DNA of 64,000 nt from Gracilariopsis chorda (lineage: Eukaryota > Rhodophyta > Florideophyceae > Gracilariales > Gracilariaceae). The notes under the pieces were generated by a model, which had not been told where the DNA came from, did not search any database, and saw only the letters and a program-made list of their open reading frames with translations. The DNA is taken from contig NBIV01000126.1 in NCBI GenBank assembly GCA_003194525.1, forward strand, positions 124,001-188,000, in the 5' to 3' direction. The translations under genes were made by a program, and so were the position numbers. Numbering within the stretch: the first letter of the stretch is position 1; each line of letters opens with the position of its first letter. Positions 6,573 through 64,000 of the stretch are shown here, piece by piece.

Positions 6573-6618
6573 AAGCGCTTTGAGACGTCAAATCGTACCG
6601 AGACGTTACAAGGAGAGC

Positions 6619-11641: not shown

Positions 11642-12641
11642 CCCGACGGATACATCCTCGTAGCTAAAACAACCGACGAATTTCTTGTCGCGTTGTCGCA
11701 TCTCACGCTTCTCCAAGATCTCTCTGCAAACCATCGCTAGAAGTACACCATCAAAAATCTTGGCCACCCAACGAAATGCATTGGCTGGAATTTCGAGTAC
11801 TCCAAACATGGCTTTCGCCTTTATCAGAATCACCTCATAGACGAAGTTGCCTCTCTGCTCCGCCTCACTAACTGCAATTCCATCACTTCACCCTTCACAG
11901 ACGGGCTTCAACTTGCAAATTCCGTATTCTCACCATCGCTCTCCCCTGATGTTCAACAACTGTATCGAGCCGCCCTCGGCACCATCCGCTATATCCCAGA
12001 CTCCACACGCACTGCCATTGCCTTTCTGAGCAGTGCTTTTACTCTCACTCAATGAGAGCCTACTCAACACGACTAAATAATCTTCAAATGCCTCGTTCAT
12101 TGCCTTTATACCACCAACACCTACGGATTATTCTTTTCCTACAGTCACCATCACCCGCTTGAGTGCTTCACCGGCGCTGACTATGCTGATAATCGCTCGA
12201 ATGGCCGGTCCATATCTGGTGAGATTATGTTTCTGAACATCTTGCTCATACTTTGGCACGGCTCTCTCCAATCTACCGTCAGCTTTTCAACATGTGAAGC
12301 CGAGTCTATTGCAGCGGCCCAAGCAGGGTAAGAGATTCTATGCATTCGTGGTTGGCTAGGCGAGCTTCAGTTCTTCCCTTGCGCTTTCACTGTGATGAAT
12401 GTTGATAAGCCAGCAGCAGTTCTGCTTTCTAACTCAAATGCTCGAACGTGACGGCGCAAACTATAGACACTTGTCATCCCTTTTTTCTCGACGCTTTCGC
12501 TGCAAACATATCCATTTCAAGCATCTCCCATCTTCACTCATGCTTGCAGACGTTCTAACAAAACTTTTGGGCCACCCGCTTTCAAATTCTTACTCGTCAG
12601 ATTTGCCTCAATGACCCCTCGTCTCACGCGGTGGGGGGGAG
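11642..12641 (+). pseudogene. copia-A 3' coding remnant (reverse transcriptase end, RNase H)
   Basis: Continuation of copia-A after the gypsy-A insertion. Translating around the breaks shows YPDGYILVAKTTDEF at the start and IRYIPDSTRTAIAFLS near 11,990. The RNase H hallmarks ADYADNRSNGRSISG and CEAESIAAAQAG follow between 12,170 and 12,330. It ends at the polypurine run before 12,642. Several stops and frameshifts make it non-functional. Confidence 0.7.
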
Positions 12642-12835
12642 TGTGGCGACGTGCGAAGACACTTGATTTCACCGGCACCGCGTGTTCTCTATCTCTTTAT
12701 GCTATACATACTTTCTTCGTGGCGACGCGCACACACCTGGCCACATTCCTGGAGCTCATCCACCCATAAAGACACCCAGGGTCACCAACATGACCGGCGC
12801 TGTCCCTGAGCATCTGTTCTAACCACAAAGGTTCC
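12642..12835 (+). repeat. right LTR of copia-A
   Basis: Begins TGTGGCGACG after a GTGGGGGGGAG purine tract and contains the ~110-bp repeat shared with 3,994-4,107. A TATA-like CTTTATGCTATACATAC lies at about 12,695-12,711. The right end is approximate. Confidence 0.6.
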
Positions 12836-14211: not shown

Positions 14212-14673
14212 TTATTTTTCAGTTGGCAAAACATACGACTTAGCAACCAACACCTCATACTCCGATTTTCGGTATACCTTCCATCCAGTGCCAACGTAAA
14301 TGCATTTATCCAACGGGAAGACCCTGCCAGGGAGCATTTCTGATTCATGTTTGGCATGGCCGACGTAGAACGGAAGCCCATCCTGACGATGGCCACCGTC
14401 AATAGCGCCGTTCGGCACTTCGCCGTTGCTTGCCGGGATCCACAGAAGCTCATCCGGCTTGTCGCACACCAGCAGCTCGCAGGGCGACACGTTGTTCTCC
14501 TTGCCGTTCCATGGGATATACGAGGTGCCATTCTGGAACTTGCCGATCGCCAATTCGCCCCCGATTTCTCCGCGTGCGACGTACGTCTTGCTGCCATTCC
14601 CGCGATAACCAGCCTCGACGAGGTTTGCAGGCTGCGGGCCGCCAGAGTACGTTACCCATTTTAGAGAGGCCAT
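14212..14673 (-). CDS. DM9-domain protein (DUF3421), 153 aa
   Basis: Two tandem DM9 repeats are visible. The first runs from about residue 3 to 75 (W near the N-terminus, YVARGEIGGELAIGKF, then CELLVCD). The second covers about residues 76-150, with LLWIPASNGEVPNGAIDGG, FYVGHAKHES, PGRVFP and YEVLVAK. These match the DM9 signature (W-x-x-x-x-G-x-(V/I)-P-x-(G/N)-A, YV-(G/A)-(R/H), PG-(K/R)-V, YEVL). I chose the ATG at 14,673 because the first repeat starts right after it; an in-frame ATG at 14,757 would add a proline/serine-rich stretch unlike the family. There is no clear signal peptide from the internal start. Known members include mannose-binding lectin-like proteins of animals; a sugar-binding or defence role here is inference. 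The copia-B element sits 294 bp upstream of the start. Confidence 0.85.
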   Translation of the reverse strand: MASLKWVTYSGGPQPANLVEAGYRGNGSKTYVARGEIGGELAIGKFQNGTSYIPWNGKENNVSPCELLVCDKPDELLWIPASNGEVPNGAIDGGHRQDGLPFYVGHAKHESEMLPGRVFPLDKCIYVGTGWKVYRKSEYEVLVAKSYVLPTEK

Positions 14674-14961
14674 GTTGATCTTCGGGATGAGTGATGTGGA
14701 TGATGAGACTTCGGCTGGGTGCGGGATACCAGGTGTGATCAGGTGAAGGTGGGGCATGTGGGAGGCAGAAGCGGGCTTTTATACTGTCGCCAAACGGGTT
14801 ATGTTGAGACTGGATTCTGAAGAAGTATCTCTCTTGCCGAGATGTGAATACTCCTGCTCTGAATTTGCTCTGGATGCAAACAGTAAGGACGATGCACAGA
14901 ACAGTAAAGCACGACAGTACGCTAAGCAAGACGCTCACGTGTGCAACTGCTCCCCTGATGT

Positions 14962-14966
14962 ACTGT
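14962..14966 (+). repeat. target-site duplication ACTGT (left copy)
   Basis: ACTGT lies directly before the left copia-B LTR and again at 20,985-20,989 directly after the right LTR. Confidence 0.9.
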
Positions 14967-15542
14967 TGTGACAATGTTTAAAATAGCTTAAGCGATGCTA
15001 ATAAGCAGATAATAGCGAATACGCGAACTAAGTAAAGAAAGGCGATTCAGCAATTGACATTCAGCCATAGCAAAGCAAACACAGCGAAAACACGTCCGCA
15101 ACCATCGGCACAACGCAACCATCAGCACACCGCGAACATCAGCAAGCCGCAACCATAAACACGTCGCAATGATAAGCAACTCGCAAACATCAGCACGCCA
15201 CAACCACCAGCACGTCGCAACCACCAGTCGTTATCAGCGACAAGCTCCATGACGACCTAATGTGAGGCATAGCTACGCTGCGACATCCGCCTATCCACGA
15301 TACCAAATCGGGATAGACGGAACCCCGAACCAAAGATGCAATACAATAGCTTGTTGAATCCATACCGGCCAAGGACGCGTAGTTAGATGCGATAGGTATA
15401 AATAGTTGAGGAGCTAGAGCAAAAAAAGAGGTCAGAGAAGAAGTGACCTCTGCGAGCACCTGTGTTCTTTATTTTGCCTGTAGAGTAGATTCCTGCCAAC
15501 TGTATCCAGTCCTACCAAATGGCTAATTACGATCTCTTCACA
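14967..15542 (+). repeat. copia-B 5' LTR
   Basis: Matches 20,408-20,984 nearly base for base. It is rich in CAGCACGCC/CGCAACCA-like tandem variants at about 15,090-15,230. A TATA-like GGTATAAATAG lies near 15,395. The last 24 bases already encode the first eight residues of Gag. Confidence 0.95.
15394..15403 (+). promoter_or_regulatory. candidate TATA box of copia-B LTR
   Basis: GGTATAAATAG occurs about 125 bp before the Gag start in the 5' LTR and at the same place in the 3' LTR (about 20,836). Confidence 0.55.
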
Positions 15543-16835
15543 TTTATGGGCCCAGGCAGGGCACCTACTCCAGGCTTCGACATGCTTCTACCGCCAAGGC
15601 TTAGCACAACGACCGACAAATATAAGTGGCGCAAGCAAGTTTCGCTATGGGTTACAACCGTTAAAAGATTCGCTAAAGGCGGTGATAAGAAAGCAAAGGG
15701 CATTCTAAGTGCACTTGGACTCACTCTATTCAACTCACTCGACTTAATTTTCTCGTCCCAAGTAGAACAAGCCATCACCGCCGGTATTATCAACTTGGAG
15801 GAAGAAGAGGATACCAATGACGAACAACCTGACAAGCAGGTCGGCATCGTTAACAAGATCATAGATCTGGTTGCTAAAGACTCTCCTACCGACGGAATAC
15901 GCCGGTTAGTGCAAATGATGCGGAATGTCTTCAACTGTACACGCAAGAACGGTGAGTCACCCGCCACCTTCGCGAGAATGTACCAAGCTGCCGCACTTGA
16001 CTACCTCAACCACTGTGATACGGCCACCATACAACATGACAGCCAAAATCTTGCCATGATGCTTCTGGAAAACGCAAAGATTCCGGCATCAGTCTACAGC
16101 TCGGTCATAACAAGGCTCGTCTCAACGATCACATCACGATCTGAGGCTACAAACAAGATTTTCGTCATAAGCAAGGACCGACTGACCGAGATCCGCGACA
16201 AAGCAAACGCCCTCCAATCCACTGACTCGACGGGTGACCGCGAAGCTACCGCGAAGTCTATCATCGACGCCGTAACAGCTATTGTAGACGCGAATGAACT
16301 CCATGTCAGACAAGATAGGACCTTTTTTCGCATCTCTCTTGACGATGCTGTAGAAGTTCTCAAGGATCTTAAAGTAGAAGATGAGGAAAAGCCTGATGGT
16401 GGATACGGACAAAGGGAGAAGCGCATCGGCAGCATGCTAGGCAAGCGCGACTTCAATCACGGCGAGCGGCATCCCAATCATCAGCGATACAATCAAGGAA
16501 GAAGGCAGAAGTCGTACATCCCATCAGGACAGGGTCCCAAAGCTGCTTCACGATGCCGCAACTGTAAAGAATTCAACCGCTGGTACAAAGACCCTGAATG
16601 TATCTATAACGTGGTTAAAGGACTTATGGAAGGAAAAGATATCGCTCCCGACGTTGTGCAGAAGCTATCACCTCAAGTGAGAAACATGTTTAAAGACGAA
16701 AACGGAAACTTCAAGTCAAGAGTGTCTGTAAATCAGATAATAGGAGTAATGGAAGACAGCCGAAGTAATGGAGACAACAAAGACGTTAATACTCCCAGCG
16801 GAAGCGGCGCGCAGAGCAACTCGTATTTTCGATAA
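15519..16835 (+). CDS. copia-B Gag-like protein (438 aa), start codon inside the LTR
   Basis: Open ORF whose ATG lies in the last 24 bases of the LTR, so the frame runs across the LTR end and through the primer site. The next in-frame ATG (15,546) is inside that primer site. The protein is hydrophilic and rich in helix-forming residues. From about residue 346 it has CRNC followed by CIYNVVKG, a possible degenerate zinc knuckle. It ends at TAA 16,833. The pol frame is -1 relative to gag and overlaps the last codons; no obvious slippery heptamer was seen. Family membership is inferred from position and the downstream pol. Confidence 0.8.
   Translation: MANYDLFTFMGPGRAPTPGFDMLLPPRLSTTTDKYKWRKQVSLWVTTVKRFAKGGDKKAKGILSALGLTLFNSLDLIFSSQVEQAITAGIINLEEEEDTNDEQPDKQVGIVNKIIDLVAKDSPTDGIRRLVQMMRNVFNCTRKNGESPATFARMYQAAALDYLNHCDTATIQHDSQNLAMMLLENAKIPASVYSSVITRLVSTITSRSEATNKIFVISKDRLTEIRDKANALQSTDSTGDREATAKSIIDAVTAIVDANELHVRQDRTFFRISLDDAVEVLKDLKVEDEEKPDGGYGQREKRIGSMLGKRDFNHGERHPNHQRYNQGRRQKSYIPSGQGPKAASRCRNCKEFNRWYKDPECIYNVVKGLMEGKDIAPDVVQKLSPQVRNMFKDENGNFKSRVSVNQIIGVMEDSRSNGDNKDVNTPSGSGAQSNSYFR
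15544..15555 (+). promoter_or_regulatory. primer-binding site, tRNA-iMet anticodon arm type
   Basis: TTATGGGCCCAG begins two bases after the LTR end and is the exact complement of the conserved initiator-tRNA segment CUGGGCCCAUAA. Drosophila copia is known to use a cleaved half of this tRNA. The site necessarily contains ATG, the complement of the CAU anticodon, and it is in frame with gag. Confidence 0.8.
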
Positions 16836-19800
16836 AGGGATTAGATTGGCTCCTACCTGATCCCAATCCAATCGTTGATGAAGGAGCCCCCACCTCCACT
16901 GGAGGTCTCAACAACGCAATCACCATCTGCGACATACTTGGTATACCTTTTGACATCGAGCCTCCGCGCGAATGGTACTACCATGGATGGGGAGACAAAT
17001 GCCTCGGAGCGAAGATGACCGTTTGTTCGTGGTCCATCACTGTCCACGATAATGCCGGTAAACCAACCTCCTTCACCTTCGACCTAGTCCCCGGTGACTC
17101 ACCTCTTATTCTAGGGCAAGAGGTCCGCGCATATTGCAACACGTTTAATCTTGCAGAGCAAAGATACATTGAAATAAAGCGCCCCTTCGACGACGCCTAC
17201 CGCTATCTGTTCACATACATAGTACCATAAGACCGCACACTGCGCCTTGACCTGGCACCACACCCACTTTCTACCAAGAAGACACTCCTCGGTAACATAC
17301 ACAAAAATGCGAAACGGCAGCCACTAGCCTTTTGCAAAAGGGTACACCGCTACACACACGCGACACCCGAGGAGATGAAAACCCTTTGCAACGAAGCCGA
17401 GATGATAGACGATGAACTCGAAGCCGCAATCGAGCGCGTTTTTGCAGCATGCAAGGTATGCGTGAAGAATGGGAGACCAATACCGTCAAGAAAGGTCTCC
17501 TTCTCACATGTTAATCAGGCATTCAACGTTGAAATTCAAATTGATTTTTTCTTCCCAACTGTTCGGGGTAAGAAACACACAGTCATGAATGTGACAGACA
17601 CCGGTACAAATTTCACAGAGGTCGCGCTCTGTGAGTCTCGGTTGGCGCAGACCATGATAAACGTCATGGAAAGGGTTTGGATCTATCGCCATGGCGCACC
17701 CGCAGCCATCTCCGCTGATGACGAATACAATTGCACGACCGTTCGGCAATTTCTCCAAGTACACAACATCGAATTCAAGCCACGACCTACCCGCAGACAC
17801 AACAAGACCGGAATTGTTGAGCGAAAGAACTCGACAGTTAAGGCCATCATCAGTAAGCTCGATGACTAGCCAAGCAACGCAACAGCAGAAACCATTCTTA
17901 AGAGAGCTGCCTTTCTCTCCAACTTGTTCTCAGGCAACAAAGTGCTCAGCTCATTCGAACTCGCAAGGGGCTACCGACTATCTGTTGTCGGAATACCGCA
18001 AACCGTTGTTACACAAGAGTTTCTGGATGCTCACAAGGAGCAAACGGCTATCCAGGAACTGCAGAGACTGCTGCACTCCAAATCACATCAAGGACACCAA
18101 CCTTCACTTTTCAAGCGCGGTGATCAAGTCTGGGTGTTCTATAACACCAGCAAGCAGAACGAAGCAGTTGAATGGGTAAAGGCTACCGTTATCGCCGCGC
18201 ACCCGCACTACTTGGAAGTCAAACGCAGTTCCCGCGGTCCCCCTATGCGTGTTGCGTACGAGGACGTCCGATTCGCACCTACGGGTACTCTCACCACCGA
18301 ACTCATGTCGTGTTCTCTCGAAGAGGAACTGGCCAAACCAATGGACAATACCGACCAGACAGAAGAGCACCCTTCCATTGCTACCAACCAGCAGGATTCC
18401 GCCGTAATTGCACAGAATGCTGGTACCGCAGTACCTATCATCGAAACACCGCCTTCGCCCCCAACCGCTACCGCTGTTATCGAAGCTCCGCCGCATGCCA
18501 CTGTTGGTACCCCTGCTGCTATCCCAGATCCCACCGCTACTACAATCGTAACCGCCCTACTCGCCAACCACGAAATACGGCAGCAGCCTGCCAACAGGGA
18601 CACGCAAGAACCGTCTGCCGAAGCGACCACCAACCGTCCCGATGGGGAGGCCAGGGATATTGGCGATTACGCCACTACTGATCGGCACGGTAGTCTTCAA
18701 GATACGACAGGACAATCACTGCAAAGAGACATATCTAGAGACATGGAGAGAATCCATGAAGTAATCGGATCCAAACAGGTTACAGCTACGCAGCTGACAT
18801 TTGCTCCACGCTTCATATTGGATGAGGCACTGACGTCCGAACACGACTCTAACTGGACTGACGCCTATGAGGAAGTACTCGACCACGATGTGCCCAGGTC
18901 CGCAAACGTGATCACATTACACGTGGTGTACAAGCTCAAAACGGACGAAAGTGGCAACCGGAAATTGAAAGCGCGCATTGTTCCACACGCGAACCATGAT
19001 AAAGAAAAAGACAACATCCGGAAAGACTCGTCACACGCCCCACTCTTCGTAGTTCGACTGCTTCTATCCCTCGTCACGTTCCTCGGATTCAGGATTGGCA
19101 CAGTCGACATCAAAGGTGCCTTCCTGCAGAGCGGGCCAATTACGCGCCAGATATACGTCCGTCCTCCGCGAGAATGGCAAGGAAAGAGAGGTGTTTTATG
19201 GAAATTGAACAAGCTACCTTACGGAATTGCTGACGCCGGCAGGCAATGGCAAAAGACAATCGAGTCTTGGATGTTAGAACGTATTGGAATGGAACGAGTT
19301 ATAGGGCTCTCACAGCTGTTTCTGAAGTGCGACACAAGTGGCAACGTCATCCTCCCAGTCGCGAAAGTTACAGATGACTTCCTGTTAGGCGGTACTAAGG
19401 AAGCGATGAAGCAATTCACAGACATGCTTAAGGAACGTTTTGAAGTTGGAAAAGTCATTATCGACGATATGCTGCACTTCGACGGTTGTGAGATCGAACA
19501 AGACGGACAGGGGAACATCGTAATGTCTATGGCTCGCTACATCGAACGTCTGAGACCCATCGAACTATCAAGAACCAGACGCAAACAGAGCCTCGATGCT
19601 GTGACAGAGCACGAAATGATACAATATCGATCGCTTGCTGCAACGCTCATGTTCCTTGGAAACGCCGTCTTGCCACAAGCCTCATACGCAACCTCAGTCC
19701 TGCAGCAGATGATACCAAAGATCCGAGTGGAAGAACTGACTGTAGCAAATGACATGTTCAAGGAGCTACTGTCCCTTAAACCGCAAATCACGTTCCACCG

Positions 19801-20367
19801 CCAGCCGATGAAATCCAAGAAGTCATCCTGTCTTCCTTTTCGGATGCATCGTTTAATCATTCGGACGCAACAGGGTATGGACAGACTGGACTAATCACCG
19901 GACTCAGGATCAAAATGAAAAGCGGGCTCGATCTGTTTCACCCCCTTGACTGGACCAGCGCCAAACAGAAAAGGGTGAGCTACTCGCCGTATGGAGCGGA
20001 AGTACTAGCGTGCGCCGAGGCTGACGACCGTGGATAATACGTGAAAAACGGCCTCATGTCTATCTTCCGCAACACTAAGGTGAGAAGCGAGCTCAGCACA
20101 GACTCTAGGTGCTTATACGACACCATAACCACCTTACATGAAGCGAGGGACTACAGGCTACGCCCGACCGTGCAGCGTCTCCGCAATAGCTTTGATTCGC
20201 ACGAGCTAGACTACATGCGATGGATTGCCGGTGACACTAATCCATCTGACGCGTTGACGAAGCGTAACCAGAAGACGTGGACGCTACTCAACGAGATATT
20301 TGCGACAGGCATACTATGCATGAGCGTCGAGTCCGGTTATGCAGTTAACAGCGAGACATGGCAATAA
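16832..20367 (+). pseudogene. copia-B Pol (integrase, reverse transcriptase, RNase H), broken
   Basis: The main frame runs from 16,832 to 19,894 with in-frame stops TAA at 17,228 and TAG at 17,867. Integrase hallmarks lie at about 17,540-17,850: IQIDFFF, ISADDEYN and GIVERKNS give the D, D, E residues. A long acidic/proline-threonine-rich linker spans 18,300-18,770. Reverse transcriptase at 18,800-19,540 shows KLKARIV, DIKGAFLQ, LPYGI and VTDDFLLGG, with VTDD replacing the usual YVDD. A frameshift near 19,830 moves into the RNase H frame (SDASFNHSDATGYG), which meets TAA at about 20,036 and ends at 20,367 with TNPSDALTKRN. An equivalent tail is seen in copia-D (42.7-44.3 kb). Confidence 0.85.
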
Positions 20368-33822: not shown

Positions 33823-36800
33823 TTGCGGTGTCTGCCGCACAAGTCGCAGTGCCGCTCCAACATTCGGGCAAAGTTCTATCCCATGGCGAGATGTTGGGTA
33901 ATTGAACAGGACCTCATACACACGCACACCCCCCAACAAGTTTCATACCGCGATGATGTTGTAAGAAGGAGGTTTGAGGGCATTCGCTCCTCTTTAGCCT
34001 CCCGTCTACAAGAATGGGAAGAGCACATACGGAAAAATGGAGAATATGTACGTCTGTCATGCATATTTCGAACCATACCCCCCTTCCAGGGAGCCGAGTT
34101 CTACAACAGCTCATCATGCTACCTCCTAGAGCATTCACATGGTCCTTTATCTCAAAGCGATGCAGAAACAGGAAGCGAAGACGATATGGCGTATGGCGAC
34201 TACAGTGGGGCTGAGGACTTTTATTCTTTCTATTGCGTGTTGCATAGCACGAAATGCCCTGAGAGGGGAGGTGTTTTTGATGGCCGTGCTTCGCAAAGAG
34301 CAGTTCACGAATCCAAACCCGAGCTTTGGAAGCAACACTTTTCGGTTTCACAGGAAGGAGGTAGGCCGTTTTCCAATCTACCGAAGAGGCCGCAGCAAGG
34401 ACCTATCTCAGGAGAAGGCATCGGGAAAGGTGACGTAAACGATGTAAAATGCTCGGATGGACTTCTGGATAACGCGTGTAACGTCGAGAGTGGCGTAAGA
34501 GGCGATTTTGGCATTAGCTCTTTTGTAGCTGACCCCCCTGCTGCTTCTCCGAACTCCTCAACACAAACAATGGACGCGAAATGCGAGCGTGCACGACACA
34601 GCGCTGTGGGCGCCGCATTAGGCTCAAAAATGAGTGAAGAGAGTGAAACTCTCAACGCAAACGTTGCATATGTGCAGCAGGTTTCAGATGAGCAATCCGT
34701 TGAAGAAGAAGAGGCGCTGCTCATTGATCGATTCTTAGATGACGAAGAGGAGGTTCCTTCATGCTTCTTCGCAGACTCTGAGGGTGGCATCCTGAATGAA
34801 GAAAATTCGGAATCGAAGGAGAAGGATGGCTTTGGAGAGAAGGACGAAAAGTACTGGACAGAAGATGGTGATGAAGAACTGGGCACGGAATCCGTACAGA
34901 ACACGATACCGAATGAGAGAATTGAGCAGTGTTTTAAAGCAGCAGTCTTAGCCTATCTGGAAACCCTTCCTCTCAATGCTCCTGGTGTCGCGGTTCTGAA
35001 GGAAGTTCAATTTATCGCGGACTGCGTCGGGTACAGCTATACTTTGGAGAACGAAAGCGATCTCCGGATAAGGCAAAGTCTCCCAAGAGTCGTGGTGCTG
35101 AACGTGGGAATAAAAGGGTACTGAAGAAGGGAATCTTGAAGTGCGATCAATACAATAACAAGATGAGGCGATGCCTATTCTCGATAAAGATTAAGACGGA
35201 GGATTCTGGGCAGAAGGAAGATGGTGGAATGATCTACGTGGCTAATTTAAATGGTTGTAAACATGGACATGGTCCCTCTGGGAGCTTTGGTATTAGACAT
35301 CTCAAGCCGCAAATGCGTTCTGAAGCGATACATATGACGAACGATTTGCACATGAGCTTTAGAGATACCATACGATACCTGGAAGACAAGTACAATCAAA
35401 AGATAAATCCGGTATCGGCGAGGAAGAAGTTGAGGTATGCTTCCTCCACAAGCAATCCCCGCGATTTGGAATGTGTAAGGTTGTGTAATCTGCTCTTTTC
35501 GTTGAGCCAGGAGGATGCAGTGAATAAGGGATTCTTCGCTGCGGATGATTCGGGTAGGATGAAGTACGCTTGTTGGTCGTTTCGAGAGTGGATGGAAGAC
35601 TACCAGAAGTTCGGCATTGTTCCGGGGGTATCTATTGATTGTAAAGCCATAGCCAATAGATACGGTTTCCCTCTGGTCACCATTAATGGAAGAGCCAATG
35701 ATGGTCATGTGTTGACATTTTTCATGGGGTACATGTGCTCCGAAACAGAAGAGGACTTCGTACGAATTCTGTCCTACTTCAAGTCTATAGTCGCCGTCTC
35801 ACCGGCGATGGTAGTGATGGACCAGAACACTGCGTGTATAAATGCAGCTGAGAAGGTGTTCAATTCGTCCTATATAAGCCTCGACGAATGGCATCTGAAC
35901 GAGAATCAGAAGAAGAATGTGGCCAATTGGTGTAGAAAGATTGGTAAGATGGAGTGGATGCACGATATGAAGAAAGACCTGTTCAACCTCAGAAAGTCAT
36001 ATACGTCGGAAACGTTTTTCGAAAGGAGAAGAATGCTAGAATCCAAGTACTTTGATGCTTTTGACGATCGTCTCCCTGTGTGGAATAAGTACTTGTACCA
36101 CTATAAGCCGCATATGCTGGTGTCTTGCTTCCGAAACGCGGCTATACCTACCCGTTACATGTTCCAAGGAACTGGCTACACCGATTCTTCTAACTCTGCA
36201 TACAAGAAGATCATTATATCGAAGAAGATTCCCTTGTGCAAGGTTCCTTTGGAGGTTCGGCGTATATCCCAAGAACGGGCTGATACCCGGAACTTGGAGC
36301 TTGTAAGAACCTTATCTTCTCAAAGTGGGAGATATCGGAAGACAAGAGAGCTTGAGCACTTTCTACCTGTAGAAGTTGTAGACAGCCTGGTGGCTGAGTA
36401 CACGAACTACGCCTTGGCGCACTTCGTAGATTTGAGCTTTAAGCCCTCGAAGAACTACATTCTTTCCAGCACAGAGGTTGTGGATTATTCACAGGAAGCG
36501 TGGCCGGAAGCAATCAGAAACTTGGGAAGTAGTTCAACCCCAGCAATTGGACCTGTAGCTCGCTTTAAGTTGAAATGGGGAAGCCATCTGAGTCAGAGCC
36601 AGAATTCGTCGGTGGATGAAGAGCGCTCATCACAGGAGACTGTTGTGCAATTCTCAAAAAGGTATAAGGGGTCGGGGCATGACGTTAAGGCAGAGTTTAT
36701 TGGTGTCTGTTGCTGTGGGCAGCCCTGGTCCGTTGGTTTTGCTTGTCGTCACATGGTTCGATCTGCTGTGGTTTATCAGGAAGAACGTGTGCGGTTCCCT

Positions 36801-37544
36801 GAACTACGAAACATACTAGGATACTTCATACCACTTGAAGCGCTTTTCTCTACATACTGGAGAAAAGATACTTCTGCTATGACAGTCCCGTACTTGGCGA
36901 AACTCAGGTCAGAGACCCGATACTTCAACAACGAGGAGATGGATTACCGACTACGCCGTTTTGATGAGTCGACGGAGAAAGAGTTTATCCCAATTGACTC
37001 AGATATACTTAGAACCAGTAGAGAAGACTCGGAAGTAGATGAGTACAATACGTACATGGAAGGAAAAAACCTCTACGATGCTTTACATCGACAAGCTACT
37101 GGAATTGGACGTGTTGCGGTGAGTGGAGTTCTACGTCTTTTAAGGGATGCCATCGCGGACATTTAGCAAGGAAAAGCGACACACTTCGAAGCTAGAGGTA
37201 CCTTTAAAACAAGGCTGGCTTCATTAACAGAACAAGCGGAAGAAACAGAGAACACTGTCACTTTACTGCATCCATCGTCTTCTACAAAAGATTTCAGTTC
37301 ATCAGAGATCCATCCGCCAAACAATGGACGCCACAGGGCACAACGGAGAAAGAAAAGCTCCTTGGAGCGCACGAGAAAGCGAGCGAGGACAAGCCCACAT
37401 TCATCCCAGGAAGTGTCTCAGAAAGACTGTCACCCACCTTCAACATCCTCAGAACCAGCTGTGGCACCCTCAACTTCCATAGCCCAAGACGTGCAAGACA
37501 AAGCACTTCGAATTATGTCAAAGTCTCTCGGACACATCCACTAG
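33823..37544 (+). pseudogene. MULE transposase with SWIM zinc finger
   Basis: The N-terminal ~400 codons (33,823 to about 35,060) are acidic and variable and end in a FAR1-like lead-in (VQFIADCVGYSY). A frameshift near 35,060-35,110 joins the catalytic frame (NKRVLKKGILKCD), which is open to TAG 37,164. The MULE catalytic domain shows the first D in VSIDCKAIANRYGFPLV with GRANDGHVLTFF, and the second D in VVMDQNTACINA. The SWIM finger reads CCCGQPWSVGFACRHMV (about 36,708-36,758). After the TAG the same frame continues for 126 codons with a coiled segment (LASLTEQAEETE) and a nuclear-localisation-like RRKKSSLERTRKRAR, ending at 37,544. That tail suggests the TAG is a late mutation rather than the true end. 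Confidence 0.85.
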
Positions 37545-55782: not shown

Positions 55783-56175
55783 ATGACGCTCTCTGTTCGT
55801 ATTCTGACGCTCATGCTTGTGATGTGCACTCTTTGTACAGCCACAAAGAGTCATCGTCGTTATTTCCTACGCCCTTTTCCGAAGAAGTGTGGCCTTGATC
55901 TGTTTCGTTTCCCCACTCATCCAGATTTCATTGCCGTGGTGCGCTGCAAGTGCTTCGGCGGTATTACAAAGGTTGATTCGATTATACGGAGCACCTCTCC
56001 GCAGATTACGCGTGGGTTGCTGAAGTGTGCGAACAAGAATCTTGACGAAATTGGAAAGCTATGTGTGATAGTGGGACAGAGCAATTTCCCGTCTGCAGTG
56101 CTATCCATCGCCGAAGAGTGTTGTTCGAAGGCCGGAGGAGCTTTAACAGGCGATCGCTGTGACCCAACTCACTAA
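55783..56175 (+). CDS. small secreted cysteine-rich protein with one domain copy (130 aa)
   Basis: The N-terminal 20 residues are a typical signal peptide (SVRILTLMLVMCTLCTA, cleavage likely after ATKS). The mature part has C55, C57, C82, C94 and C113/C114. The third and fourth cysteines are 11 residues apart, exactly as in both repeats of the 269-aa protein at 22,090-22,899, and the residues around them agree (VxCKC, LxCA, LCV, E-C). The open frame extends upstream to 55,639, but the ATG at 55,783 begins the signal peptide, so I chose it. No intron is needed. Function unknown; apoplastic or defence roles are guesses. No neighbour within 1.5 kb. Confidence 0.75.
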   Translation: MTLSVRILTLMLVMCTLCTATKSHRRYFLRPFPKKCGLDLFRFPTHPDFIAVVRCKCFGGITKVDSIIRSTSPQITRGLLKCANKNLDEIGKLCVIVGQSNFPSAVLSIAEECCSKAGGALTGDRCDPTH

Positions 56176-57827
56176 AGCAATGTTGTGTTGACCATTGCCA
56201 TCAATCGTGTGCCTAGGGCATATCCGGCTGGAGGTAACGAAACGTTTGGTTCAACTGCACTGTAAATCGCTTGCGTTGGAAGCCCGGTATCAAGGGTACA
56301 ACAGTTTAGTTCTTTCCACGCCTTATAATTATAAAGGAGGTGGGGCCTAGCACCACCTGCGTCCAATTTTTTATGTGTCTTCGTTTTCACTAACGTTTCC
56401 CATTACCGTCCGAAAGGTGGACCTGACCCCTGCTTTGAGTACATTTCTACGACTAGATACAGTGTGGGTATGAGATAGGCCTCTTTTGTGCCTGGAATTA
56501 CAGGTGCTCGTCGATCGACAAGCAGACAGAAAACGGTACCATCTCAAAGCGGCCGCTGAACTCGCTGTGTGAATAAGACTTTGGTGGCACCGGTAGCGGG
56601 CAGTCGATCGTCCCTTAACCTTGCACACTCCGTTCTGAAACCACGCTTTGCTGAGATTCGGACATTGCCTGTAGCGCCAGGGCTGGAGTAGTACGCGTTT
56701 CTTTGCCTTCAGAAAGTGTGAATGCCCAGCGAAGAGCAATGCGCGCGAGAGGGATTGAGATTGACAAGGAATTATGATAAGTTATACCACAGTGTCGCAA
56801 TTAGACAATGTGCGCCTATAAAGAAGAAGAATGCGCGCGGGCAGTAGGCCATTCGAGAGAAGAAGTTATGATTTTTTTGTAAATATTTAGAAGATTCTTG
56901 GAGGAATTACACTCTCATCAGTTTGATTGAAAGAATTGTGATGCAGACTTCTTAGTGAATGACAGTGATGTTTTTGAACGATTATTTCAAGATCGAGCAG
57001 AACAAGATAGCAGCATATTGTTTGCGCATGCTGGTTTTCACGATTGAGCCTTGGGCGTTTGGTGGCCGTCAACACTAAAGGTCATGAAACCAACCACACC
57101 GTAAATGGGTTAGCTTGCATACTTAGTTCTGCTGTGCCGTTGAAAGGCTGTACTTGCGATTCTATTGCAAAGCGGGCAAGTACCAAAGGTACCCGCAGTT
57201 TCAGGGCCGTTCTAAACAAGCCTGATCTGCTCATGTTCTGATCGGGTTTTATTGAAAGTTTTTTTTTCTTCTGTAAGCGCATAATCTCACGCGCCCTATG
57301 CCCGACGCCGGTCCACTTTGAGATGACCCGGCAAACGCTAGCACCGCAGTCGAAAATCCCTGCATCCCCCCTTGCCACGACGTCGCAAAACTCTGCACCT
57401 TTCTCTTGCCACGACTCCGCAAATCCGTGTACATCTCTTGCTTCCCATCCCAAATCCCTACACCGACCCTTTGCAACACCTTCTCAAGTCTCTGCAGCCC
57501 TGCATAGCCCACAATGTCCAGGATTGCAAGCCCAAGCCTATTCTTCATGTCATATCCACGAACCACCTCAGAAAAAGACTGGAGCCAACAAACCAGATTG
57601 CAGTCAACAGATGCTCTTGCATATCGAACCTTTCTCTCCGCGCATTGAATCCATCACTATAGGTCCAACCCTTATCCTTTTTTTTTATCCTTTACATGAT
57701 GGAGTTGCAACCTCTCTTTGAGTTGCAAAACTCGCAGTCGATGATCTAAGAGTTTGCTGCTGCTTCTTGTGCGGTCGTAGTAGGAGATATTGCTACCCAC
57801 ATTAATCAGAAAAGGAAAGCTAATGTC
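56176..57827. other. no confident gene
   Basis: Minus-strand ORFs at 56,371-56,739 and 57,082-57,566 and plus-strand ones at 57,323-57,721 overlap each other without domain signal. The region may include the left part of the PIF-B transposon, whose terminal repeat I could not find. Confidence 0.4.
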
Positions 57828-58516
57828 ATGCATATGCCGTTTCCCCTACGGAAGGACATTACCTTCGATGTTATTGCTGCAATACTGAACGAGCGGTGCT
57901 TCAAACGCGCATTCCGGGTAAGTAGAGATTCTTTTTATCGTCTTCTGGATTATGTCAAACCATCAATATCTAAGGTCACTAGCATGGGGATAGGTTCTGG
58001 TAGAACTACAGTTCCGGCCGATGTTCGGCTCGGAATTACCTTACGGATGCTCGCAGGTGCTAGTTATCTTGATGTAATGATGTGCTTCAGAGTACGCGCA
58101 TCTACGGTGTAGGACATATTTCATGACACATGTATGGAGCTTATGAAGGTGATGAAGCTACCAGGACTACCAACATCATTTCAAGGGCTCCACAAGCTCT
58201 CTCAGAGTTTCAAGTACTCTCGGTCTTCACCAAGTCCTTTTTCCGGATGCATTAGAGCACTGGACGGAATTTCAGTTCGCATTAGAAAGCCCGCACGATA
58301 TCTTAACCCCGCAGCGTTTTACTGTCGAAAAGGATTTTATGCCCTTCCTGTGCAGGCTTTGGTAGATGGATCTTACCGTTTCCTCAGCTATTCAGCGCGA
58401 TGTGTGGGCTCAACACATGATGCTCTCGCTCATGCAGTGTCCAGACTTGGTAAGTTTTTGGAGAAACATGGATTACGTTCTGAGTTTTGGATCGTGGGTG
58501 ATGAGGCATGCGTATG
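57828..58516 (+). pseudogene. PIF/Harbinger transposase (PIF-B), cut by gypsy-B
   Basis: One frame from 57,828 with a single in-frame TAG at 58,110, continuing to the gypsy-B LTR at 58,517. An N-terminal helical region (FRVSRDSFYRLLDYV, TLRMLAGASYLDVMMCF) precedes a DDE core. The first D is in GCIRALDGISVRI, the second in STHDALAHA, and the third sits in WIVGDEACVC. The frame then enters LTR sequence, so the C-terminal part of the transposase is missing from the window. It is a different subfamily from PIF-A, with low similarity around the motifs. Confidence 0.8.
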
Positions 58517-59342
58517 TGTGGTGCAATGCCCTAAAGGGGAAAAACACCGAAAGACGTTCGGGATCTTCCTCTCACGAGGTGAACCCAGTTGGGTAGAGCC
58601 CTCCCAGAGGTGTCACGGCGAAGCCGGTTTGTAAGACCAGGGTCACCTGTCGCGACTCGCGCAGGGAGGTGAAGGCGTAGAATCGGTATCCGCGTGAGCG
58701 GGGTGTGATCCTCAGTAGAGGTATGTTTCCACGTAAGTGGGGGCGTGTGGGCGGATGCGCACACGAGGGCCGCGGATAGCGGGAGGTGCTACCCTAAAAA
58801 GGGAAAAAGGAAGGGCGAGGAGGAGGAAGAGAGGGCGAAATGAGTCGCGAGAGCGACGGGGACGAACGGCGATGCAGGTGGACAGGACTCCCTATACAGG
58901 GCGAAACACCAATATGACTGGAACAATTCTACTCCCAAGGATGGGCTTCTTTAGATGTGCAAGGGGGTTAGATGTCCCGTGGTTTACGGCGTTTCCCTCC
59001 AGGGAGGAGTAGAGCACGCGCGCAAGTGGCAACAACTAGAGCCAATTCCCCAGGTTGGGGTCCCTTGTTGGGGAAGGTTTACTGGTGCGACGGCAGTGCG
59101 CCGTCGCACTAAGTACTAGCTTCCCAGAAATGGGTGTGAAAATAATAAATAATATTAACTAAAATACTCCACATTTCGTGGCAACATCCACTACTGTGGC
59201 CAACCGCCAATTGACCCAAAACCATGTCCCACGTGTCCATATCCACCATAGTGGGGCGTAGTTCATATACACACTACACAACCGATAATATCGGGAAAGC
59301 GTTCCAGTACCAAGAATCCCTCCCTGAGGGCGTTGCACTACA
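58517..59342 (-). repeat. gypsy-B 3' LTR (826 bp)
   Basis: On the minus strand it starts TGTAGTGCAACGCCCT (59,342) and ends AGGGCATTGCACCACA (58,517), giving imperfect terminal inverted repeats of about 16 bp. Its left limit coincides with the point where the PIF-B frame is lost. The solo LTR at 51,813-52,588 has the same ends. Internal hairpins include CCGCGTGAGCGG (58,690-58,701), CCTCAGTAGAGG (58,710-58,721), CCACGTAAGTGG (58,729-58,740) and GTGCGACGGC/GCCGTCGCAC (59,085-59,109). Confidence 0.8.
58690..58740. repeat. cluster of three 12-nt microhairpins in the gypsy-B LTR
   Basis: CCGC-GTGA-GCGG, CCTC-AGTA-GAGG and CCAC-GTAA-GTGG, each with stem 4 and loop 4, separated by 8 and 7 bases. 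Confidence 0.95.
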
Positions 59343-59354
59343 TATCCCCCCCCT
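59343..59354 (-). promoter_or_regulatory. polypurine tract of gypsy-B
   Basis: Minus-strand AGGGGGGGGATA lies directly before the 3' LTR start. Confidence 0.8.
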
Positions 59355-59607
59355 AAGACGGGAAAACGACCGCGGACGCGGAGGGTTCCCAGACGAAAAT
59401 GGGTGATAAAAGCGCGTACGCCGTCTCCGGTTCTTCTTTCCTTGCATAGCCGGCTATTGTAGTATAGTGTTGTGGGGAGTTAGCTGCTCCCTTGAATAAA
59501 CTTTCCCGTTTAGAACGGTGCTTCTTGGTTGAGTTCCCCGTCTTCGACGGACCTTGCCTTGTTATTCTTTCCTATCGCTCTCCGCTCGCGCGGCAACGTT
59601 ACCCAAC
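59355..59607 (-). other. 3' untranslated tail of gypsy-B between chromodomain stop and polypurine tract
   Basis: About 250 bases without an ORF on the element's strand. It contains hairpins such as CCGTCTTCGACGG (about 59,538-59,550). Confidence 0.6.
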
Positions 59608-60891
59608 TTAGGCATTTACCAGCGTGGCTGGAGCTGCAGTTCCCGATTGACGGTGGTATCGCACGACCTGCGACCGTGGGAGGTGTTCGATTGGCTCCCA
59701 CGTATCCCCACTGGGGTCATACCCGTGCCAGCGGACGCGGTATTGTAGAATACCATCCTGGTCCCAGGTGTGTCCGACAAGTCGGTCTACTACAAACTCT
59801 CGTTCGTAGACCTGCCGGCCGTGCCGGGTGGTGGTTGTATTCCCTTGCGAGGGTTGTCCGCTGCGCGGTATATTACCCCCTATCCGGGTTGTCGGCGATG
59901 TCTCCGGCGTTGCCGTGCGTTGTCCTAGTGGCCACTGCTCATGCGGGAAAGTATCCCTCAAGAGGGTGTGTGGCGTCACGGTTTCCACCGGCAAGTCGTT
60001 CCCCAGAGGTGTGTCGTTGTTCCTGTCTTCACGGTAGGCCGGGCGAACCGCCAACCGGCGGGGGACTTGAACTCCGCAAGTGCGGTCTTCTTTGCGAACC
60101 GCGAGCTTGCGGGGTTTTTGCCGTGTATGCGGGAACGGCGTTTGCGACATCCCCTGCGGGGTCCCGTGCGACACGGTGATTGGTAAGCGTTCCGCCTCCC
60201 TGCCAGGTGCACGAGCGTTCTGCACCATATGTTCCGGCGACGCCGTGGTGTCCCCGGTTACTGACGGGTTGCCTGGGGCTAACTCCGGTACACCGGTATT
60301 TTGGTCAAAATTCCCCTTTGGGGGGTGCCAGGCAGGTGCTGATGACAGCCTTTTCAGGGGAATTGCCGCTAAGCGCGGTGCACCATCTCCATGAGGAGGA
60401 GCAGCGTCCGGTACGACCGGTTTCGAGCGTGCGATGGCGCGCGTTATTCCCGAGTTCCGCGGTTCTTCGCCGCAGCGTTGCGGGGGTTGGCGCAAATTAT
60501 TCCCCGTAGCGGGTGTTTCGATTCCGTCAACGACGGGAGGCGTTTCCGGTGTTTGCGAGCCAGAGCTTGAAGCTTCGACTGCGGCTTGGCTGCCTTTTTC
60601 CCCAAGAGGGGTGTGAGTATTTCCCTGTGAGGCTGGCGTATCTGGGCGACTCTTCTCCGCGGGGCGCGGGTCTGCTGGATCTAATTGAACCGCTTCCGCG
60701 GGGGCTTCCGCCAATGGCGGCCTCGATGCATCGCTCTGCCCAGAGGTTTGGGGGCAATCGTCGCCATACTCCCTTATCGGGGATCCTTCCCTGACAGGGG
60801 TGTGCGGTAGTCGCGCTTCAACTTCCCGTGTAGCACGGTATATTTCCCGCGTTTGTGGCGATGCCTCCGGGGATGGATCGGGCGATTGCAT
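59608..60891 (-). pseudogene. gypsy-B Pol, C-terminal linker and chromodomain
   Basis: Open frame of 427 codons in a different frame from the upstream pol piece, so joined to it only through a frameshift between 60,780 and 60,890. The first ~350 residues are low-complexity, rich in Pro, Arg, Thr, Glu and Gly, and are encoded by DNA made largely of small hairpins. The last ~65 residues form a chromodomain: FVVDRLVGHTWDQDGILQYR, VRWHGYDPSGDTWEPIEHL, ending with a stop at 59,608. A chromodomain at the integrase C-terminus is the mark of chromoviruses (known). Confidence 0.8.
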
Positions 60892-62897
60892 TTCCGCTGC
60901 TGCGGTATTGGGGGAGGCTTCTCGTTTTCACGTGACAAACGGTGTATTTGCCGCTTTTGCGGGGCCTGCGCGTCTGGTTCCTGTTGCACAGCACTGCCCG
61001 GGAACGGGGGATTAGTGTCGCGTGACATACTCCGTGCTCCACGGTCAGTGTTCCGTATGTTACGGTGTGTTTCCCGTTGCGACGGCGATATCGTTCCTCG
61101 AAAACGAGTGTTCTCCTCCCCCTCCTTAGACGGAGCGTCGGGATAAGGGATAACATTCCCCGCCTGGCGGGTGTAAATTCGCGCCAGGGGGGCGGGCGCT
61201 GAGAGGCCCGAATTACCCGGCTGAGCCGGTGAGTCCGACAGAGTCGGTAGGTCTGAGAGTCCCCGGCTGGGGTGTGGTAGTACCGTAGGCCTAGTACTCC
61301 CGGATGGTTCCGGTGTTGCAGAGTCCTTAGAAACGGGGTTGCCTGGATCCAGGACTTCCTCTGACGAGGGAGGAGGGGCAAGGACAACACGATCGCGAGA
61401 GATCCGGTCGTGTGCTCCACCTATCTCTACAACGACAGTGTCGGCATTAACAGAGATGACCTTGAAGGGTCCGTCCGCCACAGGCGAGAGTTTGTGACGC
61501 TTCTCCCGTTCCGGGTTGTAGTACTCCTTCCTGATGAAGACGTAGTTATTTGCCCGAATCGGGGGGGTCTTTCCTCGCAAGCGAGCGTCAAAATCCCGCT
61601 TGTAAGCGGCTTGGGCCCATGCCATAGACTTCCGCGCAGCGGGGACCAGCTTGGAAAGCCATTGCTTCCATTGCTGCCGGTAGATACCCACTGATGGGAA
61701 ATTGTCTAAGGTAGCTTGGGGTTCCAGCGCCACAGGCGGGGGTGTTCTAGATAGAACCAACTCGAATGGCGAAACTCCGGTAGTCCGGTGTACCTGCGTA
61801 TTGTACGCGTAGGTTACCGCATCAGCGTACATGTCCCAGTTCTTTGGGTGGTCTGCGACGTAGAAACGTAACGCCGCGAGTAACGTCCGGTTAAACCGTT
61901 CAACTTGCCCATTGCACTGGGGGTGGTAGGTAGTCGTGAACAAGTTCTTGACATCCAGGATGCGACAAACATCCTGGAAGAACTTGCTCACGAACTGTTT
62001 CCCGTTATCGGAGAGCGCCTCCACAGGGGGACCGTAGACGAAAATCCAGTGCGTCACCAGAGCCTGGGCCACCGTGAGAGCGGTTATCCTCCGAAGAGGG
62101 ACAGTCCGTACCAGCTTAGAAAAGCGGTCGGTAATGAAAAGTAGAAACTTGTTTCCACGTTTCGTGGTGAGTAATGGTCCGAGAATATCGATCGCGATAA
62201 ACTCGAGCGGCGCCCTTGCGGGGAATAGTTTCATCTTCTTCCCATTTTTGCGGAGTTTGACGCGATTCTTCGCGCATTTGCTACAAAACCGCACGGTTGC
62301 GTAGCAATCCACCGCCATGGCGGGCCAATAGAAATCCCTTTGCAGGGTTAGGTACAGTTTCCTCCCACCTGGGTGACCTCCAATAGGGGCGTAGTGTGAT
62401 AGATGTAACACCCGCGACTGCAGGGAATGAGGTAACACAATCTGTGGGCGGGCTTCGACCTTCCTTACGAGGTAGCCTTTGTCGTTTACCCCAAAAGGGA
62501 GACTTTCACCACCGTTGATACGGGCACGAATCCTCGTACAGAATGGGTCGCCAAATTGTTCTCGGATCATTTCTTCCGGTGATACCGGTACAAAGTTTCC
62601 CGGTAAAAGGTTCTCAGATTCATCTCGCGATGCGAGTAGTTCGTCAAAGTCAGCATCCTCGTCCCAGTTTTCTGGCCCAGCCTCCACGGCACATTCCGGA
62701 TCATCCGGGTCTATAGCCATGAAGCATGGGACTTCATCATCCTCCGTTGGGAGTGCTTCCCCACTTGTGGGTAACCGCGACAAAGCGTCGGCCTGGGTGT
62801 TCTGCGCGCCCTTTTTATAAATGACTTGAAAGTCATATTCCGCGAGGCGGAGTCTCCAGCGCATGAGGCGTCCCGACGGGTCGGAGATATTCATCAA
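60774..62897 (-). pseudogene. gypsy-B Pol, RNase H end, integrase and start of linker
   Basis: Begins with the RNase H tail (DPSGRLMRWRLRLAEYDF, KGAQNTQADALSR). The integrase follows: zinc finger H-H-C-C (LHLSHYAPIGGHPGG ... FCSKCAKNR), then the catalytic D in FIAIDILGPL, D in LSDNGKQF and E in NGQVERFNR, with the usual 35 residues between the last two. The GPY/F-like region near 61,450-61,600 reads HKLSPVADGPFKVI. The remainder (about 61,380-60,774) is a Pro/Arg/Ser-rich linker that ends at a frame-shifted stop. Confidence 0.9.
61032..61272. repeat. cluster of microhairpins in the gypsy-B linker
   Basis: Perfect hairpins at 61,032-61,044 (CCGTG ctc CACGG), 61,053-61,065 (CCGTA tgt TACGG), 61,097-61,108 (CTCG aaaa CGAG), 61,159-61,171 (CCCGC ctg GCGGG), 61,217-61,229 (CCGGC tga GCCGG), 61,235-61,247 (CCGAC aga GTCGG) and 61,261-61,272 (CCCC ggct GGGG). 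Confidence 0.95.
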
Positions 62898-63969
62898 CCA
62901 CCAATGAGGAATGATCCGTGTACACGGTGAAGTGAATTCCCATAAGGTAGGGGCGCAGAGTGGTCATCGCCCATACGACGGCGAGGCACTCTTTCTCCGA
63001 TACGGAGTAGTTCCGCTCATGAACATTGAGCGAACGTGACCAATAACCAATTGGATGTCGTTCCCCCTCGGGGGTGGTTTGAAAAAGAGCACACCCGACT
63101 TGGTAGTCGCTCGAGTCCGTATCTACGGAGTATGGCAACCCAAGTTTTGGGAGATGTAGGATTGGTGCTGATGTGACAGCCTCCTTCAAGGAGTTAAAAG
63201 CTTCCGATTGCTCGGGCGTAAATGTTCCCAGTTTTGGGGGGTTCCCCTTTCGCAACAACGCGTTTAGGGGCACCGCAGTATCCGAAAAGTTCGGGATAAA
63301 CCGTCGATAGACGTTGACCAGCCCCAAAAAGGAGCGCAGTTCCGTTTGAGTACGGGGTTCTTTCGCCTCAACGAGGGATTTGACTCGAGCTTTCTCGATC
63401 GCTAACCGTCCAGGACGGATAATGTGACCCAGATACTTCACAGTATCTGTGAAAAACTCGCATTTCCTCAACTTGAGGGTAATTCCCGCATCGCGGAGTA
63501 CGGTCAGCACGTCTCGGACGTGAGTGAGATGGTCGTCCAACGAGTTGGAGAAGATGATAATATCATCAAGGTAGACCAGACAACTCCGCCACTTAAAGCG
63601 GTTGAGTAGAATATCTACTGCACGCTGAAAGGTGGCGGGGGCGTTGGTTAACCGAAATGCCATCCGCTTGAAGCGGTACGTTCCTGCGTGGCAGGTGAAT
63701 GCAGTTTTGTCGCGATCCTCCTGTCTGACAGGTACTTGCCAATATCCCCAATTGGCATCAAGGGCCGTGAACACGGTGGCGTCTCCAAGGGAGTCAATGC
63801 ACTCGTCCATACGAGGGATAGGGTACGTGTCCCTAACAGTCACGGCATTGAGCCGGCGGTAGTCGACACAGAACCTCCAGGCTCCGTCAGCCTTTAAAGC
63901 CAGTACAACTGGGGATGCCCAGGGTGATTGAGCGGGCTCAATCACACCTGCGCGGAGCATCTTGTCCAC
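62833..63969 (-). pseudogene. gypsy-B Pol, reverse transcriptase and RNase H
   Basis: The frame is open to the window's right edge region. Reverse transcriptase motifs: RFCVDYRRLNAVT, FTALDANWGYWQVPV, FKRMAFRLTNAPATFQR and the catalytic LVYLDDIIIFS (YLDD). RNase H: YSVDTDSSDYQVG, NYSVSEKECLAVVWA, FTVYTDHSSL. Directly after TDHSSL the frame is lost (near 62,893) and the protein continues in the 60,774-62,897 frame. The coding DNA carries many perfect hairpins even across conserved motifs. Confidence 0.9.
63664..63755. repeat. cluster of microhairpins inside reverse-transcriptase codons
   Basis: CCGCT tga AGCGG 63,664-63,676; CCTGC gtg GCAGG 63,683-63,695; CCTGT ctg ACAGG 63,720-63,732; CCAAT atcccca ATTGG 63,739-63,755. 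They overlap the codons of the conserved FKRMAF region. Confidence 0.95.
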
Positions 63970-64000
63970 TTGGGACTGCTCCTCTTCCCGAGCTTTCGGA

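Follow-up and report, generated by a model that had tools for sequence, protein, structure and literature searches.

A clade of Ty3/Gypsy retroelements represented in the genome of the red alga Gracilariopsis chorda is filled from end to end with hairpins of standard size; the analysis demonstrates their excess, their geometry and, in their stems, a base-pair code that is specific to each family. The copy described here lies at the right-hand end of the window (that is, the whole 64,000-nucleotide stretch of DNA that was analysed) and runs on past it. The features of this copy, in window coordinates, are as follows.

58,517–68,603 (right end approximate), minus strand as sense: hairpin-filled Ty3/Gypsy LTR element, 10,087 bp, extending beyond the window end
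58,517–64,000, minus strand: part of the element within the window, with about one CC..GG hairpin per 50 bases
58,512–58,516, no strand assigned: GTATG, the left half of the 5-bp target-site duplication; its right-hand counterpart directly follows the element, past 68,603
58,517–59,342, minus strand: 3′ LTR, 826 bp, with TG..CA ends on the plus strand
67,777–68,603, outside the window: 5′ LTR, 827 bp
59,346–59,353, minus strand: run of eight C on the plus strand adjoining the 3′ LTR; putative polypurine tract, assigned by position only
59,611–60,927, minus strand: ORF with a chromodomain (PF00385 at about 59,671–59,796), in the hairpin-rich linker
60,777–62,963, minus strand: integrase ORF (Integrase_H2C2 at about 62,262–62,432; rve at about 61,920–62,213)
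62,836–64,000, running on to 65,355, minus strand: RT–RNase H ORF (RVT_1 at about 63,418–63,894; RNase H at about 62,899–63,222)
58,690–58,740, no strand assigned: example run in the LTR, spaced by about 20 nt (CCGC-gtga-GCGG, CCTC-agta-GAGG and CCAC-gtaa-GTGG, starting at 58,690, 58,710 and 58,729)
61,032–61,085, no strand assigned: example run in the linker, spaced by about 21 nt (CCGTG-ctc-CACGG, CCGTA-tgt-TACGG and CCGT-tgcg-ACGG, starting at 61,032, 61,053 and 61,074)

The element itself is of an ordinary kind, that is, a Ty3/Gypsy LTR retrotransposon with a chromodomain, given its domain order (RT, RNase H and then, downstream, the integrase domains H2C2 and rve), its TG..CA LTRs, its short target-site duplication and its C-terminal chromodomain (42.4 bits against a cut-off of 25.1). 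The pol domains occupy two ORFs, in differing frames in the window copy; the RT ORF in part, and the gag ORF, lie beyond the window. The 3′ and 5′ LTRs differ by 21 substitutions and 7 gap columns over 830 aligned columns, and the GC content of the element is above that of most of the window. Although it shares with chromovirus-like Ty3/Gypsy elements its LTRs, 5-bp duplication, RT–RNase H–integrase order and terminal chromodomain, it differs from them in bearing hundreds of code-bearing micro-hairpins of standard size in both coding and non-coding sequence.

Counting non-overlapping CC..GG hairpins with a stem of at least 4 bp and a loop of 3–5 nt, we found 68 between 60,001 and 64,000, against 6.1 ± 1.9 in 15 dinucleotide shuffles, and 32 between 56,001 and 60,000, against 3.9 in such shuffles, whereas the remaining fourteen 4-kb bins of the window hold 1–7 apiece. 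The dense CC..GG hairpins described in the original prediction are thus real, and the excess is larger than was stated there. Of the 17 hairpin positions cited, 16 hold perfect CC..GG hairpins if a loop of 6 is also allowed; the exception, at 63,181, is a palindrome that opens with CT. The predicted extent of 58,517–64,000 is indeed hairpin-dense, but it falls short of the feature, which continues at about 10 hairpins per 500 bp as far as approximately 68.5 kb, while the flanking sequence shown holds 0–1 in every 500 bp. The excess in pol that had been anticipated over protein-keeping shuffles was borne out in 60 shuffles that kept both protein and dinucleotides: the RT ORF (taken whole, including the part outside the window) holds 45 hairpins against 7.4 ± 2.6 and the integrase ORF 35 against 7.2 ± 2.0, and the gag ORF likewise holds 28 against 4.6 ± 1.9. 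By contrast, and as had been predicted, the other gypsy ORF of the window (6,466–11,235) shows no excess under the same control (1 hairpin against 3.2 expected), nor do the copia sequences tested. Chance, GC content or codon usage might be suspected on account of the GC richness of the element relative to most of the window, but is rejected by the dinucleotide- and codon-preserving shuffles and by a control with GG..CC stems, which leaves it a negligible probability.

The excess is specific as to closing pairs and size. CC..GG stems number 188 against 15 expected, GG..CC stems 25 against 13 and GC..GC stems 9 against 7, so that enrichment is not of the kind driven by stability irrespective of sequence. 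Nearly the whole excess consists of 4- and 5-bp stems, which are enriched in all ten loci tested, as 3-bp stems are not; stems longer than 5 bp contribute little, and pairing extended outward beyond the CC/GG is depleted (7 against 43.3 expected). Loops are mostly 3–5 nt long, family A hairpins (that is, those of the family of the window element) have unpaired flanks and recur about once per 50 nt, and stem sequences differ among hairpins. Hairpin centres in family A pieces tend towards a pitch of approximately 20.2 nt, and those of family L066 towards 20.8–20.9 nt; the pitch is not significant in families B, C, D, L065 and L070, and that of the window copy exceeds a uniform null but not a gap-permutation null.

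These properties bear on general selection for local RNA structure (for example, for stability or for protection against host nucleases or small RNAs) that would require no specific reader. Sense RNA of the element is folded somewhat more stably than its shuffles, the mean MFE z over 25 element windows being −1.87 for the sense and −1.27 for the antisense strand; for the other gypsy the mean in 12 windows was +0.44. However, the scant enrichment of GG..CC stems makes generic RNA stability a poor explanation, GC..GC stems fare no better, G-U pairs are unused and longer, stabler stems are not sought; we therefore regard this alternative as very unlikely. Some RNA viruses have ordered RNA structure on a genome scale, spread genome-wide and partly placed at synonymous sites; the array here resembles it in its genome-wide spread, but is code-specific, lacks G-U pairs and uses short stems of fixed size.

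Hairpins of similar size are also in excess in related families of this genome, but are closed by other pairs. Enrichment of CC at the base of the stem is 12.8–18.0 fold in A, L066, B, L065 and L070, and family D instead has GGA beside the loop (GGA..TCC); the CC..GG form is thus the code of family A and is not universal across the clade. Hairpin positions overlap between families within the range of a shift null (A/C, 11 against 8.1 expected; B/C, 8 against 6.2), and pol hairpins compared between families lie mostly in frame-conserved sequence without indels. Four Gag reads extend as far as the knuckle, and each has one CX2CX4HX4C motif, which differs between code groups, a correlation of knuckle and code that is based on two clades. 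Scans of viral contigs and genome contigs returned no DNA-level relatives elsewhere, and the matches from protein-level searches point to Agarophyton chilense among others.

Variation among copies was analysed for selection in family A only, in 30 pol copies and a linker alignment. Shared variants are sparse in stems, both in pol (22/636 in stems, 24/257 in loops and 183/3,039 outside) and in the linker (9/342, 26/143 and 88/979, respectively), whereas private variants are not depleted there, a difference that points to selection. Our results thus support selection that keeps family A stems paired in the replicating lineage, where stems are refreshed, followed by decay after insertion. In the linker, whole blocks differ between subfamilies. 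The family D polymorphism sample comprises 18 rows, 3 of them from a divergent subfamily, with only 7 five-bp hairpins called. Of the causes first suggested, selection for a structured genomic RNA accordingly holds as regards selection, and is weakened as regards general structure by the form of the stems described above, despite the sense MFE z.

The other two suggestions, mobile micro-palindromes gained and lost as units and snap-back copying during reverse transcription, fared less well. Among the 30 pol copies (columns 1–4000, counting gains that do not overlap a common hairpin) only four new hairpins were found, each produced by 1–2 substitutions, which, with the frame-conserved, indel-free setting of pol hairpins between families, speaks against gain and loss as units. 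The mobile double-hairpin elements found in mitochondria of chytrid fungi and the palindrome-rich organelle DNA of Volvox are like-sequence repeats that insert as units; they are similar to the present array in being dense, short, GC-ended palindromes, but here the stems differ and no unit gain or loss was seen in pol copies. Snap-back is disfavoured because none was found among the hairpin gains and because simultaneous changes in both arms are rare between copies (none in shared pol haplotypes and one clear case in the linker). A related mutational origin, in which the reverse transcriptase of the lineage repeatedly copies one arm of a near-palindrome onto the other, so that functionless hairpins accumulate and are repaired, accords with perfect Watson–Crick arms of free sequence, and repair during copying would also be expected to refresh stems in the replicating lineage and leave them to decay after insertion. 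Arm-templated repair should, however, yield many two-arm changes, the new hairpins in copies are few and arose by 1–2 changes, and such an origin leaves unexplained the CC-base and GGA-loop codes and the scarcity of stems above 5 bp; we judge it distinctly unlikely.

The pairing pattern bears on whether the hairpins are read as RNA or as DNA. G-U pairs in stems (37 against 29.8 expected) are not tolerated above other mismatches (A-C, 60 against 32.2 expected), which speaks against a role at the RNA level, and predicted pairing probability in stems is statistically indistinguishable in sense (0.396) and antisense (0.375) RNA (p = 0.51); the sense strand is favoured only by its MFE z and by its flanks, in which A follows GG in 100 of 192 hairpins. 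The hairpins could thus function in DNA, either in single-stranded cDNA or as dyads, and be recognised by integrase, by some factor of the host or by a protein that coats the cDNA, consistent with strict Watson–Crick pairing, equal folding of the two strands and A-C mismatches (that is, G-T on the opposite strand) slightly above G-U. The strand difference in the flanks argues against this, and inter-hairpin distances cluster near multiples of approximately 20 nt, with troughs near 30 and 50, rather than at multiples of 10, so that simple ten-bp helical-face phasing does not fit. We consider a DNA-level role unlikely.

We tentatively favour, as a possibility somewhat short of probable, the reading that the hairpins are recognition sites specific to each family, probably read by Gag on the genomic RNA. 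Each hairpin would then be bound by the Gag/nucleocapsid of the element that carries it, the family A pitch of about 20 nt would match a protein lattice with a regular repeat, and the stem code would enable each Gag to tell its own RNA from that of related families present in the same cell. A more specific form of this proposal, which might be called a 'rule of twenty' and which we regard as rather doubtful, holds that a nucleocapsid lattice occupies approximately 20 nt of RNA per subunit, each slot possibly one standard hairpin, and that the family base-pair code is a genome-wide self-label, written largely at synonymous sites, by which each of several families in one cell would package its own RNA alone. 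In Ty3, likewise a gypsy-type element with a genomic RNA, packaging of RNA depends critically on the Gag zinc finger (PMC4974528); the portions of PMC11381356 and PMC4974528 available to us mention no array of standard hairpins along the whole element like that found here. The dispersed packaging signals of RNA viruses, as set out in the available part of PMC6281560, are similarly many scattered stem-loops with a common recognition feature, and here too many dispersed hairpins share a feature and, in family A, are conserved by selection. Unlike in those signals, the feature shared here lies not in the loop but at the base of the stem or in the part of the stem next to the loop, the stems are of 4–5 bp without G-U, the pitch occurs in one family, and binding by a coat protein is a prediction.

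A literature search of titles and abstract openings, in which subscription papers were sparsely covered, found no comparable hairpin-filled element, and the hairpin feature is therefore without precedent in the literature searched. The question of how an LTR element singles out its own RNA from the RNAs of the cell and of near relatives is still open, and could be tested directly in related families whose hairpin codes differ naturally across the whole element. Should the hairpins instead result from the way in which the reverse transcriptase copies, this would be surprising too. In either case, the genes of these elements hold a second layer of information, which is overlooked when proteins are annotated.

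Scanning the whole window for perfect hairpins (stem of at least 4 bp, loop of 3–5 nucleotides, CC at the start and GG at the end) bore out the claim that a gypsy element here is saturated with small CC..GG hairpins: 16 of the 17 positions cited for them were confirmed, and 60,001–64,000 holds 68 hairpins against 6.1 ± 1.9 in dinucleotide shuffles. The bin 56,001–60,000 holds 32 (3.9 in dinucleotide shuffles) and the remaining fourteen 4-kb bins 1–7 each; the top bin outside the element, 12001–16000, has 7 (1.3 in shuffles). In the DNA past the window (L009 and L010), about 10 hairpins per 500 bp continue until approximately 68.5 kb, followed by 0–1. The limits of the hairpin-rich region are those of a single LTR element, flanked at both ends by GTATG; its two LTRs measure 826 and 827 bp and show, over 830 aligned columns, 21 substitutions and 7 gap columns. 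ORF stretches flanking it (58113–58634 and L010:1689–2162) gave the impression, from their translations, of halves of one transposase-like gene split by the element. The elements compared are:

58,517–68,603, minus strand: family-A element with gag, RT-RNase H, integrase and chromodomain
6466–11238: second gypsy-type element, a single 1,590-aa ORF with RT, RNase H and integrase; no hairpin excess
15489–19894: copia-type ORFs, RVT_2 in the second; no hairpin excess

No Pfam family matched the gag ORF at E 0.001, and its name comes from its location and protein relatives; its best matches are proteins of the gracilariacean red alga Agarophyton chilense (58% identical). PMC5970526 describes LTR elements as the most abundant class of repeat in the related Gracilariopsis lemaneiformis.

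Neither composition nor codons are the cause of the excess. It persisted against shuffles that kept both protein and dinucleotides, in the ORFs of RT (45 hairpins versus 7.4 ± 2.6), integrase (35 versus 7.2) and gag (28 versus 4.6). The related families B (L003, 47 versus 7.0; L001, 18 versus 4.0) and C (L007, 25 versus 5.2) also have an excess. The window’s second gypsy-type element, said to be free of such density, indeed has 1 hairpin versus 3.2 in plain codon shuffles and is a natural control; the window’s copia ORF showed no excess in the same type of shuffle (1 versus 1.4), and five copia loci have 0–1 hairpins each. A 742-aa ORF at 34938–37166 looks like a transposase, on impression only.

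CC..GG hairpins per kb range from 18.6–22.3 in family-A gag loci through 15.5, 10.4 and 9.6 in the related families L066, L065 and L070, to 6.3 (L067), 5.7 (L069), 4.5–5.0 (family D) and 4.3 (L064), and finally 2.1 in L068 and 1.5 in L071, which are near shuffles (6 versus 2.3 and 4 versus 1.9). The CC-poor families are nonetheless not poor in hairpins as such: five-bp stems with loops of 2–5 number 64 versus 17.8 in D, 40 versus 11.1 in L068 and 26 versus 9.7 in L071, and more weakly 51 versus 33.3 in L069, L067 and L064 pooled. Such stems have a mild background, given that they were 1.2- and 1.7-fold enriched in two host stretches. Each code (that is, the family-specific base pairs of the stem) differs: CC at the stem base is enriched 12.8–18.0-fold in A, L066, B, L065 and L070 and 7.5-fold in C; in D, GGA adjoins the loop (GA 22 versus 1.3, GG 18 versus 1.7); L071 has TG at the stem base (8 versus 0.7), and L068 has TC there (8 versus 0.9) with GA near the loop (9 versus 0.9). 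In a gag tree, which lacks B and C as their loci end short of gag, A, L064–L067, L069 and L070 are separated from D, L068 and L071.

Over the 10,040 bases counted in the window copy, which contain both LTRs and therefore each LTR hairpin two times, stems of four bases with loops of 3–5 number 188 versus 15.2 with outer CC, 82 versus 11.8 with outer CG, 25 versus 13.2 with outer GG and 9 versus 7.3 with outer GC; we read the CG count as coming mostly from the inner bases of longer CC stems. At ten loci, the ratio of observed to expected maximal stems is 1.9–3.4-fold for 4 bp, 1.7–4.6-fold for 5 bp, 0.9–1.3-fold for 3 bp and 0 to 3.7-fold, on counts of 0–14, for 6 bp; stems of 4–5 bp thus make up nearly all of the excess, yet this is no absolute limit. 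Directly outside CC/GG, a Watson–Crick pair occurs in 7 of 192 hairpins versus 43.3 expected from margins (about 33 once C-G, absorbed by the finder, is excluded), and A lies opposite A in 50 of 192. Loop sequences have no consensus. Family D also contains a lone perfect stem of 13 bp around a 2-nt loop (L056, approximately 1398–1425), far longer than the standard hairpins.

Hairpin centres in the window copy repeat near 20.3–20.5 nt, a pitch that was spotted in the data first and tested afterwards, exceeds the uniform null, lies inside the gap-permutation null and drifts in phase along the element. L016, a family-A copy of pol and linker, exceeds both nulls at 20.2 nt for distances of 100–300, 300–600 and 600–1,200 nt. 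Searched between 14 and 30 nt, pol pieces L016 and L032 (one region, two copies) gave 20.19, gag pieces L061 and L063 gave 20.23 and 21.04 (20.39 at 110–330 nt), and linker piece L043 gave 20.19, not above null in either distance range; L066 has 20.8–20.9, and no significant pitch was found in B, C, D, L065 or L070.

Third-position identity between A and B is 0.396. Of 44 A hairpins, 11 have identical columns in B, against 0.17 in the shift null, and 25 overlap a B hairpin, against 13.1 expected and a shift maximum of 20. A and C have 6 hairpins in common and 11 overlapping (8.1 expected), B and C 7 and 8 (6.2 expected), such that overlap beyond exact sharing is clear for A/B only. Part of this agreement is explained by conserved protein. 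At shared sites the differences fall mostly in loops, and paired stem changes occur (CCGC..GCGG to CCGA..TCGG in A/B; CCCT..AGGG to CCCG..CGGG in A/C).

Among 30 family-A pol copies including that of the window (3,932 columns), variants shared by at least two copies occupy 22 of 636 stem, 24 of 257 loop and 183 of 3,039 other sites, against 87, 18 and 345 singletons (shared versus private: stem versus outside, P = 0.003, or 0.001 without CpG sites; stem versus loop, P = 2e-5, helped by the few loop singletons). When only CpG sites are counted, shared variants show no clear deficit in stems (12/156 versus 39/454), which we attribute to recurrent mutation. In 11 linker copies, shared variants number 9/342 (stem), 26/143 (loop) and 88/979 (outside), and private variants 66, 28 and 171 (P = 1.5e-4 and 7e-6). 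Stems therefore vary freely in single copies and seldom in the lineage, which supports selection on pairing in family A, with the proviso that the copies are related and variant sites not fully independent. The window copy differs by approximately 2–4% from other sampled copies (L012–L040). One copy, L022, has a linker end quite unlike the others and hairpin-filled nonetheless, which suggests that subfamilies may have exchanged blocks.

Excess, geometry and codes are observed properties of the hairpins; their reading by a protein would be a further step, and Gag would be the natural candidate. Of seven Gag reads, four reach the knuckle, each with one CX2CX4HX4C motif; the CC clade has CHLCYAHGHTSPQC and CHTCYRHGHIAPNC, the other clade CHVCYGRHHLAAEC and CYSCYGRHHLPAEC. 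Reading at the RNA level is favoured by flank asymmetry (on the sense strand, A directly follows GG in 100 of 192 hairpins) and by the lower MFE z of sense RNA (−1.87 versus −1.27 for antisense), but stem pairing probability is equal in sense and antisense RNA (0.396 versus 0.375) and G-U tolerance is missing: in six CC-type families pooled, near-hairpins number 37 versus 29.8 with one G-U, 60 versus 32.2 with one A-C and 141 versus 131.7 with other mismatches. Given this evidence on both sides, we retain two alternatives, that the hairpins act at the DNA level, which we consider unlikely, and that they arise from copying, which seems slightly less probable still. As for reading by Gag, RNA packaging in Ty3 critically needs the zinc finger, as an excerpt of PMC4974528 describes, and the nearest precedent is the dispersed packaging signals of RNA viruses, as portrayed in part of PMC6281560.
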